Assembly (NCBI GenBank): GCA_004124475.1
Contig: SCKK01000001.1
Location: forward strand, 1-64,000
Length of the DNA stretch: 64,000 nucleotides
From: Fidelibacterota bacterium
GTDB taxonomy: Bacteria > Fidelibacterota > Marinisomatia > Marinisomatales > SCKK01
Direction of reading: 5' to 3'
Shown here: one piece after another, positions 57,151-63,998 of the stretch
Position numbering within the stretch: the stretch's first letter is position 1
Layout: the number at the start of each line of letters is the position of its first letter
Translations under genes and position numbers: made by a program
The notes under the pieces: generated by a model
The model's input: only the letters and a program-made list of their open reading frames with translations
Told to the model about the DNA's origin: nothing
The model's database searches: none

Positions 57151-57801
57151 TTATAAAACCTTAGCCACTTCACGAAAGAATTTCTTTTTCAATTTGGGTA
57201 CTTTCGTCTCTTCCTCAGGAAATCCGACGGGGATGAGCAAAAACGGCTTTTCGTTTGAGGGGCGATTTAATATTTCTGTCAGGAATTTCATGGGACTGGG
57301 TGTATGTGTCAAAGCCACCAATCCCGCATTGTGGATAGCCATAAGGAGAAATCCGGAGGCAATTCCCACAGACTCGTTTACATAATAATTTTTTCGCTGT
57401 TTCTCTTTATCAACTCCATAAACCTGTTTAAAAAGCACGAGGAGGTAAGGAGCCTTTTCCAGAAATTCCTTATGCCAGTCTGTCCCAAATTGGTTTAGAT
57501 CCTCCAGCCATTCCCGCGTAAACCTGTGCTCGTAATTTTCCTTTTCTTCTTTTTCCGCCGCTTCACGGATTTGCCTTTTTACTTCCGGATTACTGACAAT
57601 CACGAAAGTCCAGGGCTGCTTGTTGGCGCCGGAGGGGGCTGAAGCAGCTGTCATTACGATGTTTTCAATAACCTCAAAGGGTACCGATCTCTCCGAAAAT
57701 GTTCGAACACTTCTACGGGTTTTCATTTGAGCAAGAAATAGAGATGATCTCTCTACCATCTCTTCATGGGTCAATGGTTTGTATTTAAGATTTTGAAACA
57801 T
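57151..57801 (-). CDS. Nitroreductase family protein
   Basis: This 216-aa FMN-dependent oxidoreductase begins its fold with MKTRRSVRTFSERSVPFEV, the family FMN-phosphate motif. AAPSGANKQPWTFVIVSNPE and VGIASGFLLMAIHNAGLVAL follow. It reduces nitro- or quinone-like compounds with NAD(P)H; the true substrate is unknown. It is encoded downstream of selD with about 230 nt between. Confidence 0.92.
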   Translation of the reverse strand: MFQNLKYKPLTHEEMVERSSLFLAQMKTRRSVRTFSERSVPFEVIENIVMTAASAPSGANKQPWTFVIVSNPEVKRQIREAAEKEEKENYEHRFTREWLEDLNQFGTDWHKEFLEKAPYLLVLFKQVYGVDKEKQRKNYYVNESVGIASGFLLMAIHNAGLVALTHTPSPMKFLTEILNRPSNEKPFLLIPVGFPEEETKVPKLKKKFFREVAKVL

Positions 57802-58032: not shown

Positions 58033-59082
58033 TTAAGCCAGAAAGATTGAGTGGTCTTTCTTCGGGACAATTCTCCCTATTTTGAAGGCAAGAATGGAAG
58101 AGTGTTGATTGAATTCCTCTAAAAATGCATCTGCGTCAGCCTCTGAGAACGCCAAAAGTAATCCACCGGAAGTCTGGGCATCAGCCGCCATAAGTTTCCG
58201 GTAATCTTTTATACCGGAATCGAACTTCGTATCTTTTTCCACGAAATTTAAATTGCGTTTCGTGCCTCCAGGAATAATTCCTTGTTGAGCTAAGTTTATG
58301 ACTCCATCGATAAATTGGATTACATGAAACTCAATTTCCGCGGAAACGTTGCTGCCACGACACATTTCTAAGAGGTGCCCCAAAAGACCATAACCGGTTA
58401 CATCCGTAGCGGCATGTACTTTGTGTTTTAACATGAGTTCAGCGGCTCGGCTGTTTAATGTTTTCATCACGTTGGTTGCAGTCCGGATCATAGATGAATC
58501 GGCAATACCCTTTTTTATGGCTGTTGCAATGATACCGGTTCCCAACGGTTTTGTCAGGACAAGGACATCCTCAGATTCTGCTGTGGAGTTTCTAACAAGA
58601 TTGGGAAGGTAAATTTCTCCCGTTACCACCAAGCCGTATTTCGGTTCTATGTCATCAATTGTATGACCGCCCACGATGGATATTCCCGCCTCTTTAGCTT
58701 TATCCGCTCCTCCCAATAGGATTTCGATTAGCGTTTTTCTTGGCAGGGTTTGAATTGGGAAACCTACAATGTTCAAGGCAAAGAGTGGTTTGCCTCCCAT
58801 GGCGTAGATATCCGACAGGGAATTGGCAGCAGCAATTTGTCCGAAATCATAGGGATCGTCCACGATGGGGGTAAAGAAATCGACGGTTTGGACAAGCGCT
58901 TTATCTCCATCCATGCGTACTACGGCGGCATCGTCAGAATTATTAAACCCGACAACCACACGGGGATCCTCGATAGGCGGCAAATGACTCAGAACCTGAG
59001 CCAGGTCCTCAGGACCTAATTTGCTGGCTCAACCGGAACCGTGACTAAGTGTCGTGAGGCGCTTTATTTCATCATTAACCAT
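58033..59082 (-). CDS. selD: Selenide, water dikinase (selenoprotein with Sec18)
   Basis: SelD makes selenophosphate from selenide and ATP for selenocysteine and selenouridine synthesis. The frame from 58983 lacks the N-terminus. Reading from ATG 59082 gives MVNDEIKRLTTLSHGSG, then an in-frame TGA (59029-59031), then ASKLGPEDLAQVLSHLPP. The TGA is at the catalytic Cys/Sec position, and Lys three residues on is the conserved partner. GGHTIDDIEPKYGLVV and DVTGYGLLGHLLEMC follow. A SECIS-like hairpin starts at the TGA. The full protein is 349 aa. Confidence 0.95.
58997..59031 (-). promoter_or_regulatory. Bacterial SECIS-like hairpin at the selD UGA codon
   Basis: On the minus strand, UGAGCCA beginning at the UGA pairs with UGGCUCA 28 nt downstream. 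An upper stem GGUCC/GGACC closes a UGA tip, and GCAAAUUA is bulged. The position directly at the UGA and the upper stem-loop fit a bacterial SECIS recognised by SelB. Confidence 0.8.
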
Positions 59083-59246
59083 AGTAGTAAATTTAGGAAT
59101 CTGATTAGTAGTAAGGTAGAGGAAAGGTGGGAATGAGAAAGATTCCAGCTATTTTTATCTTCCGGTGAATTAAATACTTACTATTCAAGCTTTGTGTATA
59201 CTTACTCATTATGACTAAGGTATATGGTTTTGATTGATTGCCGGCT

Positions 59247-59432
59247 CTAATATTTTTCTAATAAATCTTCTCTACCGGATTTAACTTCGTTTCGGATATG
59301 CCAATAAGAAAAATGTTTGATGGATGACAAATAGGATTTAATCGTCCGCGGGCTGTAATTTCGGATAGTAAGTTTTTGTTCTGCGGTTTTTAATAATTCA
59401 GCTTTACGCATGATAATACGGTTAAAATACAA
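59247..59432 (-). pseudogene. Tyrosine recombinase N-terminal fragment
   Basis: Only the core-binding (SAM-like) domain start of a phage-type integrase is present: AEQKLTIRNYSPRTIKSYLS, then SIKHFSYWHIRN. The frame ends after 61 codons without a catalytic domain (no R...HxxR...Y). It lies at the border of the type II restriction island and is likely a leftover of the element that brought it. It could be an integron-type or other site-specific recombinase; the fragment is too short to decide. Confidence 0.7.
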
Positions 59433-59513
59433 CTACAACATAAAGAGTAAACCTGCTAAACGCGATATTGGGTTTAGCACAACGTTGGCAGAATTGATGC
59501 TAGAGGAATCAAG

Positions 59514-60545
59514 ATGAAAAGACTTCCCCGAAAAGTAAAAGAATTGATTGAAAAGTCGAGAGAGTCTGCGATATTAGCAGTAGATATTTACAATAAACCT
59601 GCTACAAAATTTCGCTCATTTACTTTCATCATCTTGATGAATATTTCTTGGACATCGCTATTACATGCAACATTTGAACGACAGGGAATCAAATACTTTT
59701 ATAAAAAAAGTAACTCGAACAGATATATTTACATTGATGGACAAAAAAAGGCATGGGACCTGAGCGAATGTATCAATGAATATTTTAAAGATCAAAATTC
59801 TCCTACGAGAGAAAATCTACGATTCTTTATTGGCCTTAGAAATCAAATTGAACATCGGTTCTTACCCGCATTGGATCTGGACATTTTTGGAGAATGTCAA
59901 GCACTTTTGCTTAATTATGAGAAACTTTTAACGCAAGAATTTGGAGAAGATTACAGCTTGGCAGAATCGTTAGCGATTCCTCTGCAATTATTAACGGTTG
60001 ATTCAAAATGGAGAAATAAGGTGTTGAAAGAAATTCAGTCGAGAGAGTACGAAGCAGTTAAAGAATACATAGATACATTTCGGTATTCATTAGATGAAAG
60101 TGTATGGGATAGCTCCGAGTATAATTTCAAAATTTTTCTTGTTCCTAAGCTTGGAAACAGGCAAAGGTCAGCGGATATAGCTGTAGAATTCATCCCATAT
60201 GATAAAGATAACCCAGAAGAAATGGAAAAATATAAAAAAGTAGTTGCATTTATTAAAGAGAAACAAGTTCCGGTTGTAAACCCAGGAAAACTTAAACCAG
60301 GGGACGTATCGCAAAGGATGGAACAAACTCTTGGTATAACCTTTCATCCGAGCTCACACCATGTAAGATGTTGGAAATATTATAAAGTTCGCCCATCATC
60401 AAATAGCAAATCTCCTGAGAAAACTAAAATCAAATATTGTCAATACGATGTAGCTCATGGCGACTATGTATATACAGAAGAATGGGTAGAATTTCTAATA
60501 GCAGAATTGTCTGTTTTAAAAAAAAGAAAGGAAGTGTTAGAATGA
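59514..60545 (+). CDS. DUF3644 protein with HEPN-like motif
   Basis: This 343-aa protein belongs to DUF3644, a family frequently found beside restriction-modification genes. The N-terminal 170 residues are helical and contain GLRNQIEHRF, which matches the R-x4-H motif of HEPN ribonucleases (R109, H114). A C-terminal part from about 230 to 330 (VVNPGKLKPGDVSQRMEQTL) looks like a DNA-binding or sensor region. It precedes the methyltransferase gene by about 180 nt. A role as an RNase effector of defence is inferred. Confidence 0.85.
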   Translation: MKRLPRKVKELIEKSRESAILAVDIYNKPATKFRSFTFIILMNISWTSLLHATFERQGIKYFYKKSNSNRYIYIDGQKKAWDLSECINEYFKDQNSPTRENLRFFIGLRNQIEHRFLPALDLDIFGECQALLLNYEKLLTQEFGEDYSLAESLAIPLQLLTVDSKWRNKVLKEIQSREYEAVKEYIDTFRYSLDESVWDSSEYNFKIFLVPKLGNRQRSADIAVEFIPYDKDNPEEMEKYKKVVAFIKEKQVPVVNPGKLKPGDVSQRMEQTLGITFHPSSHHVRCWKYYKVRPSSNSKSPEKTKIKYCQYDVAHGDYVYTEEWVEFLIAELSVLKKRKEVLE

Positions 60546-60726
60546 AAAGAATAATGCACCACATTAGAAAACACGGTGTATGCGGTTCGGGCTTACGCCC
60601 TCACCCAAATTCCTCGCTTTGCTCGGAACTTCAGATTTACTCAAAACATTATCTGCAATTGCGGGCAGGGGAAAAAGTAAATATCAAGGTATGTTATATA
60701 TAAAAATTAATCGAAGGTAATCAGAT
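60546..60726 (+). other. Spacer between the DUF3644 and methyltransferase genes
   Basis: No gene is supported. It holds a GGGC-TTAC-GCCC hairpin near 60588-60600 and GGTAATC just before the methyltransferase ATG. Confidence 0.4.
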
Positions 60727-62328
60727 ATGAACCAGCTAACATTTCTTGAAGAAGCAAAAAAACTAATCAATTTAAGAGAAGCCAGCGAATGGGCTTCGCA
60801 ATATTTAAATCGTAACGTTACCACCTCCAATATTTCATATTTACTGCAATACGGAAGAATAATAAAGTATGGGAGTAATGGAAATCCCTTAATAAATATT
60901 GACGAATTAAAAGAATATTACGACTCTTTTGATAAGGAAAAACAGTGGAAAAAGAAATTAGGTGAAGACCTTAATTGGCATTTGTCTTTTATAGAATACA
61001 AGGAATCAGAGAGAACAAAGCATGTTCACAGATTACACCCTTATAAAGGTAAATTTATCCCTCAATTGGTAGAATATTTCCTTGATTCTCATACCGATGA
61101 ATTCAAGAAACAAATATATTTTCATAAAGGTGATATTGTGTTGGATCCATTCTGTGGAAGTGGAACAACGTTAGTTCAAGCAAATGAATTAGGGATGCAT
61201 GCCATTGGTGTAGATATTTCTGCGTTTAATGCAATGATTAGCAAGGCTAAGATTGAAAAGCATAATATCCCAAATATTAGGGAAGCTATTCACAATATCA
61301 CATTAAACTTGGTAAATTTTCAGAAAACAAAAAATAATATTGCTTTTGAAGAACATCTACTTTCAGAACTTTCAAAATTTAACTACAGGTATTTTCCATC
61401 GCCAGAATATAAAATAAAAGTAAGAAAAGGTAAGATTAACGAAAAAGAATATGCAAAAAATAAAGAACAAAAGTTTCTTAGCATTTATTATGATTTAGTG
61501 GAAAAATATAAAATCAAAATTAAACAAGATAAAAATAATTCTTTCTTAGATACGTGGTTCTTATTTCTAGTGAGAGAAGAAATCGACTTTGTATTTAAGG
61601 AATTGAAAAACGTTGGTAATAAGGATATTAAAAAAATATTAGCAATAATCTTTAGCAGAACCGTTCGCTCCTGCAGAGCAACTACTCATGCTGATCTAGC
61701 AACCTTAAAAGAGCCTGTCACAACTACATATTACTGTAAGAAACACGGCAAAATATGCAAACCAATTTTTTCCATTAAAGGATGGTGGCGAAGGTATACC
61801 ATAGACACATTAAATCGCCTTAATGAATTTGACAGATTAAGAACCGAAACATTTCAAATATGTTTGATAGGGGATAGCAGAACGATAGATATTTATAAAG
61901 AAATCAAAAAAAGAAATTCAAGGTTAGCAGAATTATTGCTGAAACAAAAGATTAAAGGTATTTTCTCAAGTCCACCTTATGTCGGACTTATTGATTATCA
62001 CGAACAGCATGCATATTCCTATGAAATATTTGGATTTGATCGAAAAGATGAATTAGAAATCGGACCCCTTTCTAAAGGTCAGGGAAAAGAAGCAAGGAAT
62101 TCCTATGTCAAAGGCATAGCGGTATCTTTAAGAAATTGTAAAAAATATCTTCAAAAAGATTATGACATCTTTTTAGTAGCCAATGACAAATTTAATCTTT
62201 ATCCAGATATTGCACAGTTATCAGATATGAAAATTGTTAATCAATTTAAGCGGCCTGTGTTGAATAGAGTGGAAAAAGATAGGTCTAATGCCTATGCAGA
62301 AATAATATTTCATCTAAAGGAGAGATAA
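60727..62328 (+). CDS. Type II DNA methyltransferase (probably N4-cytosine or N6-adenine)
   Basis: This 533-aa amino-methyltransferase has an N-terminal excisionase-like helix-turn-helix (NLREASEWASQYLNRNVTTS, about 15-70). The family block RLHPYKGKFIPQLVEYF and the SAM motif VLDPFCGSGTTLVQ (about 139-150) follow. The catalytic motif is SSPPYVGLIDY (about 413). SPPY is most common in N4-cytosine enzymes, but N6-adenine is not excluded. The long insert between the motifs is probably the target recognition domain. It is one base from the endonuclease gene. Confidence 0.92.
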   Translation: MNQLTFLEEAKKLINLREASEWASQYLNRNVTTSNISYLLQYGRIIKYGSNGNPLINIDELKEYYDSFDKEKQWKKKLGEDLNWHLSFIEYKESERTKHVHRLHPYKGKFIPQLVEYFLDSHTDEFKKQIYFHKGDIVLDPFCGSGTTLVQANELGMHAIGVDISAFNAMISKAKIEKHNIPNIREAIHNITLNLVNFQKTKNNIAFEEHLLSELSKFNYRYFPSPEYKIKVRKGKINEKEYAKNKEQKFLSIYYDLVEKYKIKIKQDKNNSFLDTWFLFLVREEIDFVFKELKNVGNKDIKKILAIIFSRTVRSCRATTHADLATLKEPVTTTYYCKKHGKICKPIFSIKGWWRRYTIDTLNRLNEFDRLRTETFQICLIGDSRTIDIYKEIKKRNSRLAELLLKQKIKGIFSSPPYVGLIDYHEQHAYSYEIFGFDRKDELEIGPLSKGQGKEARNSYVKGIAVSLRNCKKYLQKDYDIFLVANDKFNLYPDIAQLSDMKIVNQFKRPVLNRVEKDRSNAYAEIIFHLKER

Positions 62329-62329
62329 A

Positions 62330-63106
62330 ATGTCGCTTATAAAGGAACAAATAAAATTAATCGAGAATACTATCAAAGATAGCCTACGGAAAAAGTTTAA
62401 GACATATAAGCCAGAAACGAGTCATATGCCTTTTCATTATCGCTTACTCGGTCGTGATAGAATGGCATTATTTTCCTTTATCCACTCATTAAACACGACT
62501 TTTGGTACATCTATTTTTGAACCTGTTGCTGTAACTTTGGCAAGTTTGAACTTTGAATTTGCACAAAAACAGTATGTCGTCGGTGATACTATCAGTGAAC
62601 AAGCCCAATCTGAAATTCAACGTATTATGAATGAACTCACAATTGGAAAAAATCCGCATAAAGCGGAAGAAATCGAAAGGATAAGAAAAGTTTGCAACAA
62701 GGGTACAATGAACAAATTAAAAACTGTAAAAGTAGATTTATTTGTTCAGAGTACTAGTGGAACAGTCCATTTGTTTGACTTAAAAACAGCAAAACCAAAT
62801 ATCAGCAATTTTAAAGATTTCAAAAGGACATTGTTAGAATGGATAGCAATTTATTTGGCAAAAAATCCAAGTGCAAAGGTAGAGTCATATATTGCTATCC
62901 CCTACAATCCATACGAACCAAGACCTTATGAAAGATGGACATTGAAAGGTATGTTAGATTTGGATAATGAGTTAAAAGTTGCAGAAGAATTGTGGGACTT
63001 TCTTGGGAATGATGGTGCCTATGAAGAATTATTAAATTGTTTTGAAAGAGTAGGTATAGAATTAAGACCGGAAATTGATGCATATTTTGCAAGATTTAGA
63101 AAATAA
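62330..63106 (+). CDS. TdeIII/MjaII-type type II restriction endonuclease
   Basis: This 258-aa endonuclease follows the methyltransferase gene with a one-base gap. RDRMALFSFIHSLNTTFGTS and FEPVAVTLA look like the TdeIII family, whose characterised members cut GGNCC (family knowledge, not shown here). The PD-(D/E)xK core is likely D136 in VKVDLFVQ and D150-L-K152 in HLFDLKTAKPN. It protects the host DNA only together with the upstream methyltransferase. Confidence 0.82.
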   Translation: MSLIKEQIKLIENTIKDSLRKKFKTYKPETSHMPFHYRLLGRDRMALFSFIHSLNTTFGTSIFEPVAVTLASLNFEFAQKQYVVGDTISEQAQSEIQRIMNELTIGKNPHKAEEIERIRKVCNKGTMNKLKTVKVDLFVQSTSGTVHLFDLKTAKPNISNFKDFKRTLLEWIAIYLAKNPSAKVESYIAIPYNPYEPRPYERWTLKGMLDLDNELKVAEELWDFLGNDGAYEELLNCFERVGIELRPEIDAYFARFRK

Positions 63107-63416: not shown

Positions 63417-63998
63417 CTACTCTTCTCCCATCTTGCTACTCAACCGCTTCACGTCCTCGATACTCCGAATGGTAATGTTTTTCAGATTCTCCAGATGAAT
63501 GGACTTAAAAGCGAACTTAATTTGGAGATTATCGATGTAATTCCTCAGGTCAATGGGAAAATGATGCGTTTTAACAGCAATGGCTTTGAGGGGATAATCG
63601 GGATAAGTTTTGTCTAAGGTATGCAGTGTCAGGTTTTGAGATTCGATATCTTTTCGTACTTCCCGAATATGGTTCATCAGGATATTTTCTGAGAATTCCC
63701 AAGGAGCAGTATCATCCTTTATGTTGGAAAGGAACCGGTAACCCTTATCAAAAGTAGTCAGGAAATATCTGCTGTACTTTTTTCCGCTCAGCGTGTCTTC
63801 TAAAAACATTTGGATTTGTGTTTTTCGGTCTTCAACAAACTTCATCCAAATCCGGAAATAGGGTCTGAAAAGAAAATAGCCAAACGGTGTTTTAAATGAA
63901 TTCTGCCGATTGAAAAAGCTCTTTATATCGTAGGTTAGCCGTCTCATTTGGTGACGTATCTCTTTTGGAAACAGGTGATAAACAGGTGAAACCAGATT
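63417..63998 (-). CDS. Hypothetical protein, partial (runs off the right edge)
   Basis: The frame is open to the window edge. Upstream of the Met at 63947 it reads NLVSPVYHLFPKEIRHQ without a stop, so the true start probably lies beyond 64000. The visible C-terminal 190 residues are rich in aromatic and basic residues (FFNRQNSFKTPFGYFLFRPY) and probably mixed alpha/beta. No family is recognised. It could be the C-terminal end of a larger enzyme or a mobile-element protein. Confidence 0.6.
   Translation of the reverse strand, partial: NLVSPVYHLFPKEIRHQMRRLTYDIKSFFNRQNSFKTPFGYFLFRPYFRIWMKFVEDRKTQIQMFLEDTLSGKKYSRYFLTTFDKGYRFLSNIKDDTAPWEFSENILMNHIREVRKDIESQNLTLHTLDKTYPDYPLKAIAVKTHHFPIDLRNYIDNLQIKFAFKSIHLENLKNITIRSIEDVKRLSSKMGEE

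Follow-up and report, generated by a model that had tools for sequence, protein, structure and literature searches.

A predicted selenocysteine-containing selenophosphate synthetase in a Marinimicrobia-type bacterial order and the hairpin behind its UGA codon

The window, by which the whole analysed stretch of 64,000 nucleotides from a Fidelibacterota bacterium is meant, carries on its minus strand a frame for selenide water dikinase (selenophosphate synthetase, SelD), running from an ATG at 59082 through an in-frame TGA (59031-59029) to a stop at 58035-58033 (Table 1). With the TGA read as selenocysteine (Sec), the translation of this frame is MVNDEIKRLTTLSHGSG-U-ASKLGPEDLAQVL..., a protein of 349 aa; no clear Shine-Dalgarno sequence was found ahead of the ATG. 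The protein matches TIGR00476 over its full length with 393.4 bits (cut-off 125) and PRK00943 with 373 bits (cut-off 299), contains the AIRS (PF00586) and AIRS_C (PF02769) domains, both above their gathering scores, and aligns with Escherichia coli SelD (PDB 3u0o) with an E value of 9e-75. In this alignment the motif SHGSG-U-ASK is placed on SHGAGCGCK and the TGA falls on Cys17, which is the Cys/Sec position of the family; the Lys that follows this position is invariant in the 17 sequences compared. A match to a curated model, AIR-synthase-like N- and C-terminal domains, and a Cys/Sec residue followed by Lys, the characters by which a SelD is recognised, are all found in this protein. Compared with the E. 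coli protein it is the same enzyme with the same domain structure; however, E. coli SelD has Cys and needs no recoding, whereas the window protein has a predicted Sec. It is also the same enzyme as the Aquifex-type SelD (2yye/2zod), of which the solved construct aligns over residues 9-318, but it scores nearer to 3u0o (255 bits) than to 2yye (218 bits). The native Aquifex SelD is a selenoprotein.

An earlier note on this DNA had stated that a start at 58983 misses 33 codons, and this holds exactly, the mechanical ORF opening with TTG at 58983 having 316 aa against 349; its placing of the TGA at the catalytic position (LSHGSG-U-ASK) is likewise borne out by the alignment with Cys17 of the E. 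coli enzyme. It had also held that automated annotation would truncate the protein, which is likely but not certain: in one survey of 298 known selenoprotein genes of bacteria, 195 had a correct annotation at NCBI (PMC12013277). Inside the window selD is the sole convincing gene with an in-frame TGA, and TGA terminates 11 of the 43 large ORFs. The TGA between 33607 and 36348, the only end of a TGA-terminated large ORF to be followed by a long open stretch, was rejected as a second case, being an ordinary stop between hsdM and hsdS.

Table 1. Positions of selD, of the elements within and around it, and of related genes elsewhere in the genome (plain positions are those of the window; C, contig; L, locus; G, genome).
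Feature	Location	Strand	Remark
selD, selenide water dikinase (selenophosphate synthetase), predicted Sec18 form	58033..59082	-	349 aa; stop codon counted in span
In-frame TGA, predicted Sec18 of SelD	59029..59031	-	falls on E. coli SelD Cys17 in the alignment
Shortened SelD ORF, TTG start 58983	58033..58983	-	316 aa; expected output of a standard caller
Conserved bacterial SECIS core, upper stem GGUC(C)/(G)GACC, 3-5 nt loop	59004..59016	-	112/116 core pairs
Full 35-nt hairpin, lower stem UGAGCC/GGCUCA holding the UGA	58997..59031	-	complete in window gene, incomplete in many relatives
Nitroreductase-family protein directly downstream of selD	57151-57801	-	weak resemblance to BluB, score far under cut-off
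Restriction-modification-like block that separates selD from the gene usually found upstream	59240-63106
Truncated tyrosine-recombinase (integrase) N-terminal domain remnant	~59240-59410	-
DUF3644	59514-60545
N6/N4 DNA methyltransferase	60727-62328
TdeIII-type restriction endonuclease	62330-63106
Uncharacterised ~270-aa protein upstream of selD	63417-63998, on to C16:64241; L020:3418-4242	-
selA	C25:34889-36232		530 bits
selB	C25:39631-41490		349 bits
tRNA-Sec, UCA anticodon	C69:4499-4592		Rfam model above gathering score, and ARAGORN
SelW-like selenoprotein gene	C67:22254-22472		CxxU
SelW-like selenoprotein gene	C14:3420-3635		CxxU
PrxQ/BCP-like peroxiredoxin	C40:837-1199		TPGU
SelL-related redoxin	C46:114010-114396		YYUP
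Selenoprotein candidate, ResA-like domain	G000:C65:74062-74430 (L142:1129-3273)	-	715 aa; UxxC

The genome to which the window belongs (3.15 Mb in 77 contigs, 95% complete) was found to contain selA and selB on one contig, with about 3.4 kb between them, as well as a tRNA-Sec gene. These three genes had been predicted in the earlier note, and since they are present its finding is not refuted; the search for further genes with in-frame UGA that it had proposed returned at least five, two SelW-like and three of the AhpC/TSA fold. The selenoproteome given here is a lower bound, the families having been searched one by one in this genome with stops read through. Each client gene has a bSECIS-like hairpin with a G in the first two loop positions. 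The 715-aa protein, in which LVIVD repeats, a DUF1573-like region, the ResA-like UxxC domain and a C-terminal tail of the type IX secretion kind are combined, is a candidate for an exported selenoprotein of unusual architecture, as predicted from its domains. A CMD/AhpD-like selenoprotein was also considered and rejected, the one weak match in this genome being without TGA.

Behind the UGA the transcript may fold into a hairpin, for which the bacterial SECIS (bSECIS) consensus specifies a loop of 3-9 nt, an upper stem of 4-16 bp, a G in the first two loop positions, a spacing of 16-37 nt and at most -7.5 kcal/mol (PMC13188914). The window hairpin fits this consensus with a 3-nt loop (UGA), an upper stem of 5-8 bp, about -8.9 kcal/mol and a spacing of 17 nt, the loop beginning 17 nt past the UGA in the 5-bp form of the stem; in contrast, several relatives keep only a 4-bp stem, and their loop (e.g. 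CAGAA) starts with two nucleotides other than G, which places them outside the published consensus. A subset of bacterial selenoprotein genes is known to depart from the early-G loop rule (PMC13188914). No matching SECIS model was obtained from Rfam, in which only chance-level matches appeared. Folded as a single sequence, the 43-nt stretch with the hairpin reaches -17 kcal/mol (z -2.1 against shuffles), and the 122-nt context of the window gene folds no better than shuffles (z 0.17). Folding of one sequence is no more than suggestive; the question is decided by comparative pairing, for which 29 SelD genes were set against 500 shuffled sets, made by exchanging synonymous codons inside each gene. 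When the nucleotides are numbered from the T of the TGA, the core pairs are 16-28, 17-27, 18-26 and 19-25 (59016-59004), and 112 of the 116 cells are paired, whereas the shuffles average 89.8 and never exceed 98; the 29 genes are related and do not count as independent events. The lower stem that holds the UGA is paired in 149 of 174 cells among the same related genes (shuffle mean 133, maximum 144); its pairing is above chance yet imperfect, and less conserved than the upper stem-loop. Codon usage agrees in detail: GGT encodes the hairpin Gly in all 25 of 25 genes but makes up 29% of the Gly codons in the rest of these genes, GAC encodes the Asp in 28 of 29 against 33% elsewhere, and the loop codons vary freely. 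These comparisons indicate that selection keeps the small upper stem-loop at 59016-59004 through synonymous codon choice. A hairpin of 35 nt starting at the UGA (59031-58997) had been claimed earlier; the palindrome is present, but the conserved part is the upper one, and the full structure is only partly conserved because its lower stem is incomplete in many relatives.

It could be argued that such a hairpin is not a SECIS element and arises as a by-product of the encoded amino acids (G-P-E-D-L), which are conserved in this segment, the more so as the hairpin of one sequence is unexceptional in its long context. However, shuffles that preserve the amino acids stay at or below their maximum of 98 core pairs against the 112 observed. 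Moreover, Sec-type SelD genes of other phyla (n=25) have a mean of -5.3 for the hairpin against -2.8 for synonymous shuffles, whereas Cys-type genes (n=22) show no excess (-1.5 against -1.7), so that the by-product reading is very improbable.

The distribution of the gene was followed in 61 genomes, the window's own and 60 others from its genus and order. Of these, 47 contain SelD, and all 47 non-fused SelD genes that cover the site (45 genomes, own included) have exactly one TGA; three fusion-type matches and one fragment that ends short of the site were left out of this count. Similarly, each of the 42 full-length SelW-like genes of the order contains one TGA. In these genomes, the near-complete relatives among them, selD is nearly always accompanied by selA, and the exceptions are mostly incomplete genomes. 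Nine genomes of one family (f15), of 0.8-1.0 Mb, lack selD and SelW-like genes alike and have no selA match that exceeds the cut-off, so that the Sec trait is lost here as a unit. Sec decoding is common to most families of the order and was lost together in this one reduced-genome family. The best named SelD matches come from Candidatus Marinimicrobia/Neomarinimicrobiota MAGs, and by SelD similarity alone the bacterium most likely belongs to this phylum; TGA-type SelD also occurs in loci of Gemmatimonadetes, Verrucomicrobia, Chloroflexi, Clostridia and others, and Cys is found at the Sec18 position in SelD homologues of other phyla. A published listing counts SAR406 single-cell genomes among the holders of an "orphan" SelD, without any selenium trait (PMC5029168); since selD is nearly always found with selA here, those cases may reflect incomplete genomes. 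The excluded fusion-type matches (G023:C50, G030:C252 and G031:C193) have their SelD domain inside an open frame of about 740 aa that contains no TGA; they are probably the known NADH-dehydrogenase-like/SelD fusions, described as Cys-type (PMC4561486); in two of the three genomes a Sec-SelD coexists with the longer frame. Second Sec-type copies of SelD were seen in two genomes (G001:C191:12108-13133 and G049:C18:104344-105369) and may be either paralogues or assembly contamination.

The UGA might instead be an ordinary stop, SelD then starting at TTG 58983 or being a pseudogene, and the existence of the mechanical ORF and the normal use of TGA as a stop elsewhere in the window would agree with this. 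Against it, the catalytic position and the conserved Lys lie upstream of 58983 and are conserved throughout the order together with the single TGA, the choice of synonymous codons near the site is under constraint, and the genome has the full Sec machinery; the chance that the codon terminates translation is accordingly very small. A genome-wide reassignment of UGA (e.g. to Trp or Gly) with nothing selenium-specific about it would explain why several genes have an in-frame UGA, but it is contradicted by the routine TGA stops of the window, by the redox Cys positions that UGA occupies in the genes found (CxxU, UxxC, TPGU), and by tRNA-Sec, selA and selB, and can practically be dismissed.

The window gene thus almost certainly encodes a functional selenoprotein form of selenophosphate synthetase, in which the UGA at codon 18 would be read as Sec. 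A conserved TGA at a Cys position, selA, selB and tRNA-Sec in the genome, and a stem-loop under selection, the marks of a bacterial selenoprotein gene, are found together. When the ribosome reaches the UGA at codon 18 of selD, SelB with GTP and Sec-tRNA-Sec would bind the mini-hairpin directly behind this codon, and Sec would be inserted at position 18 with no termination. The finished enzyme would use Sec18 to make selenophosphate from selenide and ATP, and this product would supply SelA in the formation of Sec-tRNA-Sec for SelD itself and for the client redox selenoproteins (SelW-like, peroxiredoxin-like and ResA-like). In this scheme the gene with its codon, the selected hairpin, the decoding machinery, the client genes and the co-loss in one family are drawn from sequence, and the translation event and the chemistry of SelD follow established bacterial Sec decoding. 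The supply of SelD would as a consequence be dependent on Sec, that is, on itself.

Sec-containing SelD (SPS2) has long been known and accounts for about 19% of prokaryotic SelD genes (PMC4561486). The window gene shares with it the family, the Sec position, a SECIS-like hairpin after the UGA and the co-occurrence with selA, selB and selC, and shows no essential difference apart from its origin in a Marinimicrobia-type order. No paper describing selenoproteins of this order was found in the literature searched; the addition is its documentation across the order, together with a corrected selD annotation for a poorly studied uncultured lineage.

The data also bear on what maintains the Sec trait. 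It has been proposed by Zhang et al. (2006) that, where the formate dehydrogenase FdhA is missing, Sec-SelD may sustain the trait, perhaps for selenouridine (PMC1794560). Family searches of the window's own genome detected neither a Sec formate dehydrogenase nor a selenouridine synthase; the two molybdopterin-domain proteins, considered for the former, are without TGA and resemble by eye a NarG/DMSO-reductase-type protein and NuoG. Selenouridine synthase exceeds the cut-off in only 8 of the 61 genomes. It is limited to family f6 and one genome of f7, and Sec-SelD with selA occurs in nearly all families. Neither FdhA nor selenouridine is available here as a reason for the Sec trait, with a small doubt from MAG incompleteness. 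A speculative and rather unlikely extension is that in this order Sec-SelD is kept by small redox and exported selenoproteins, not by FdhA or selenouridine synthesis, and that SelD, because its own synthesis needs Sec, acts as a selenium-gated positive-feedback switch, possibly with its upstream neighbour gene.

This neighbour, of about 270 aa, has no Pfam or NCBIfam match, and its structure model has a mean pLDDT of 41. It was found in 35 of the 61 genomes; in all 29 cases in which it shares a contig with selD it lies upstream and co-directional, at 15-291 nt in 21 of them. It was not found in f15, the family without selenium use, nor beside selD outside Marinimicrobia-type loci. It is possibly a selenium-linked gene, or its position may merely reflect conserved gene order. 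In the window it lies 4.3 kb from selD (63417 onward), with the restriction-modification-like block between; relatives are without this block and have a gap of 15-300 nt. As restriction-modification genes and an integrase remnant separate selD from its usual neighbour, the arrangement suggests the insertion of a restriction-modification island on the upstream side of the gene. Downstream, the nitroreductase-family gene was not seen in the loci of other relatives and is kept in one sister genome (G001, 95% identity).
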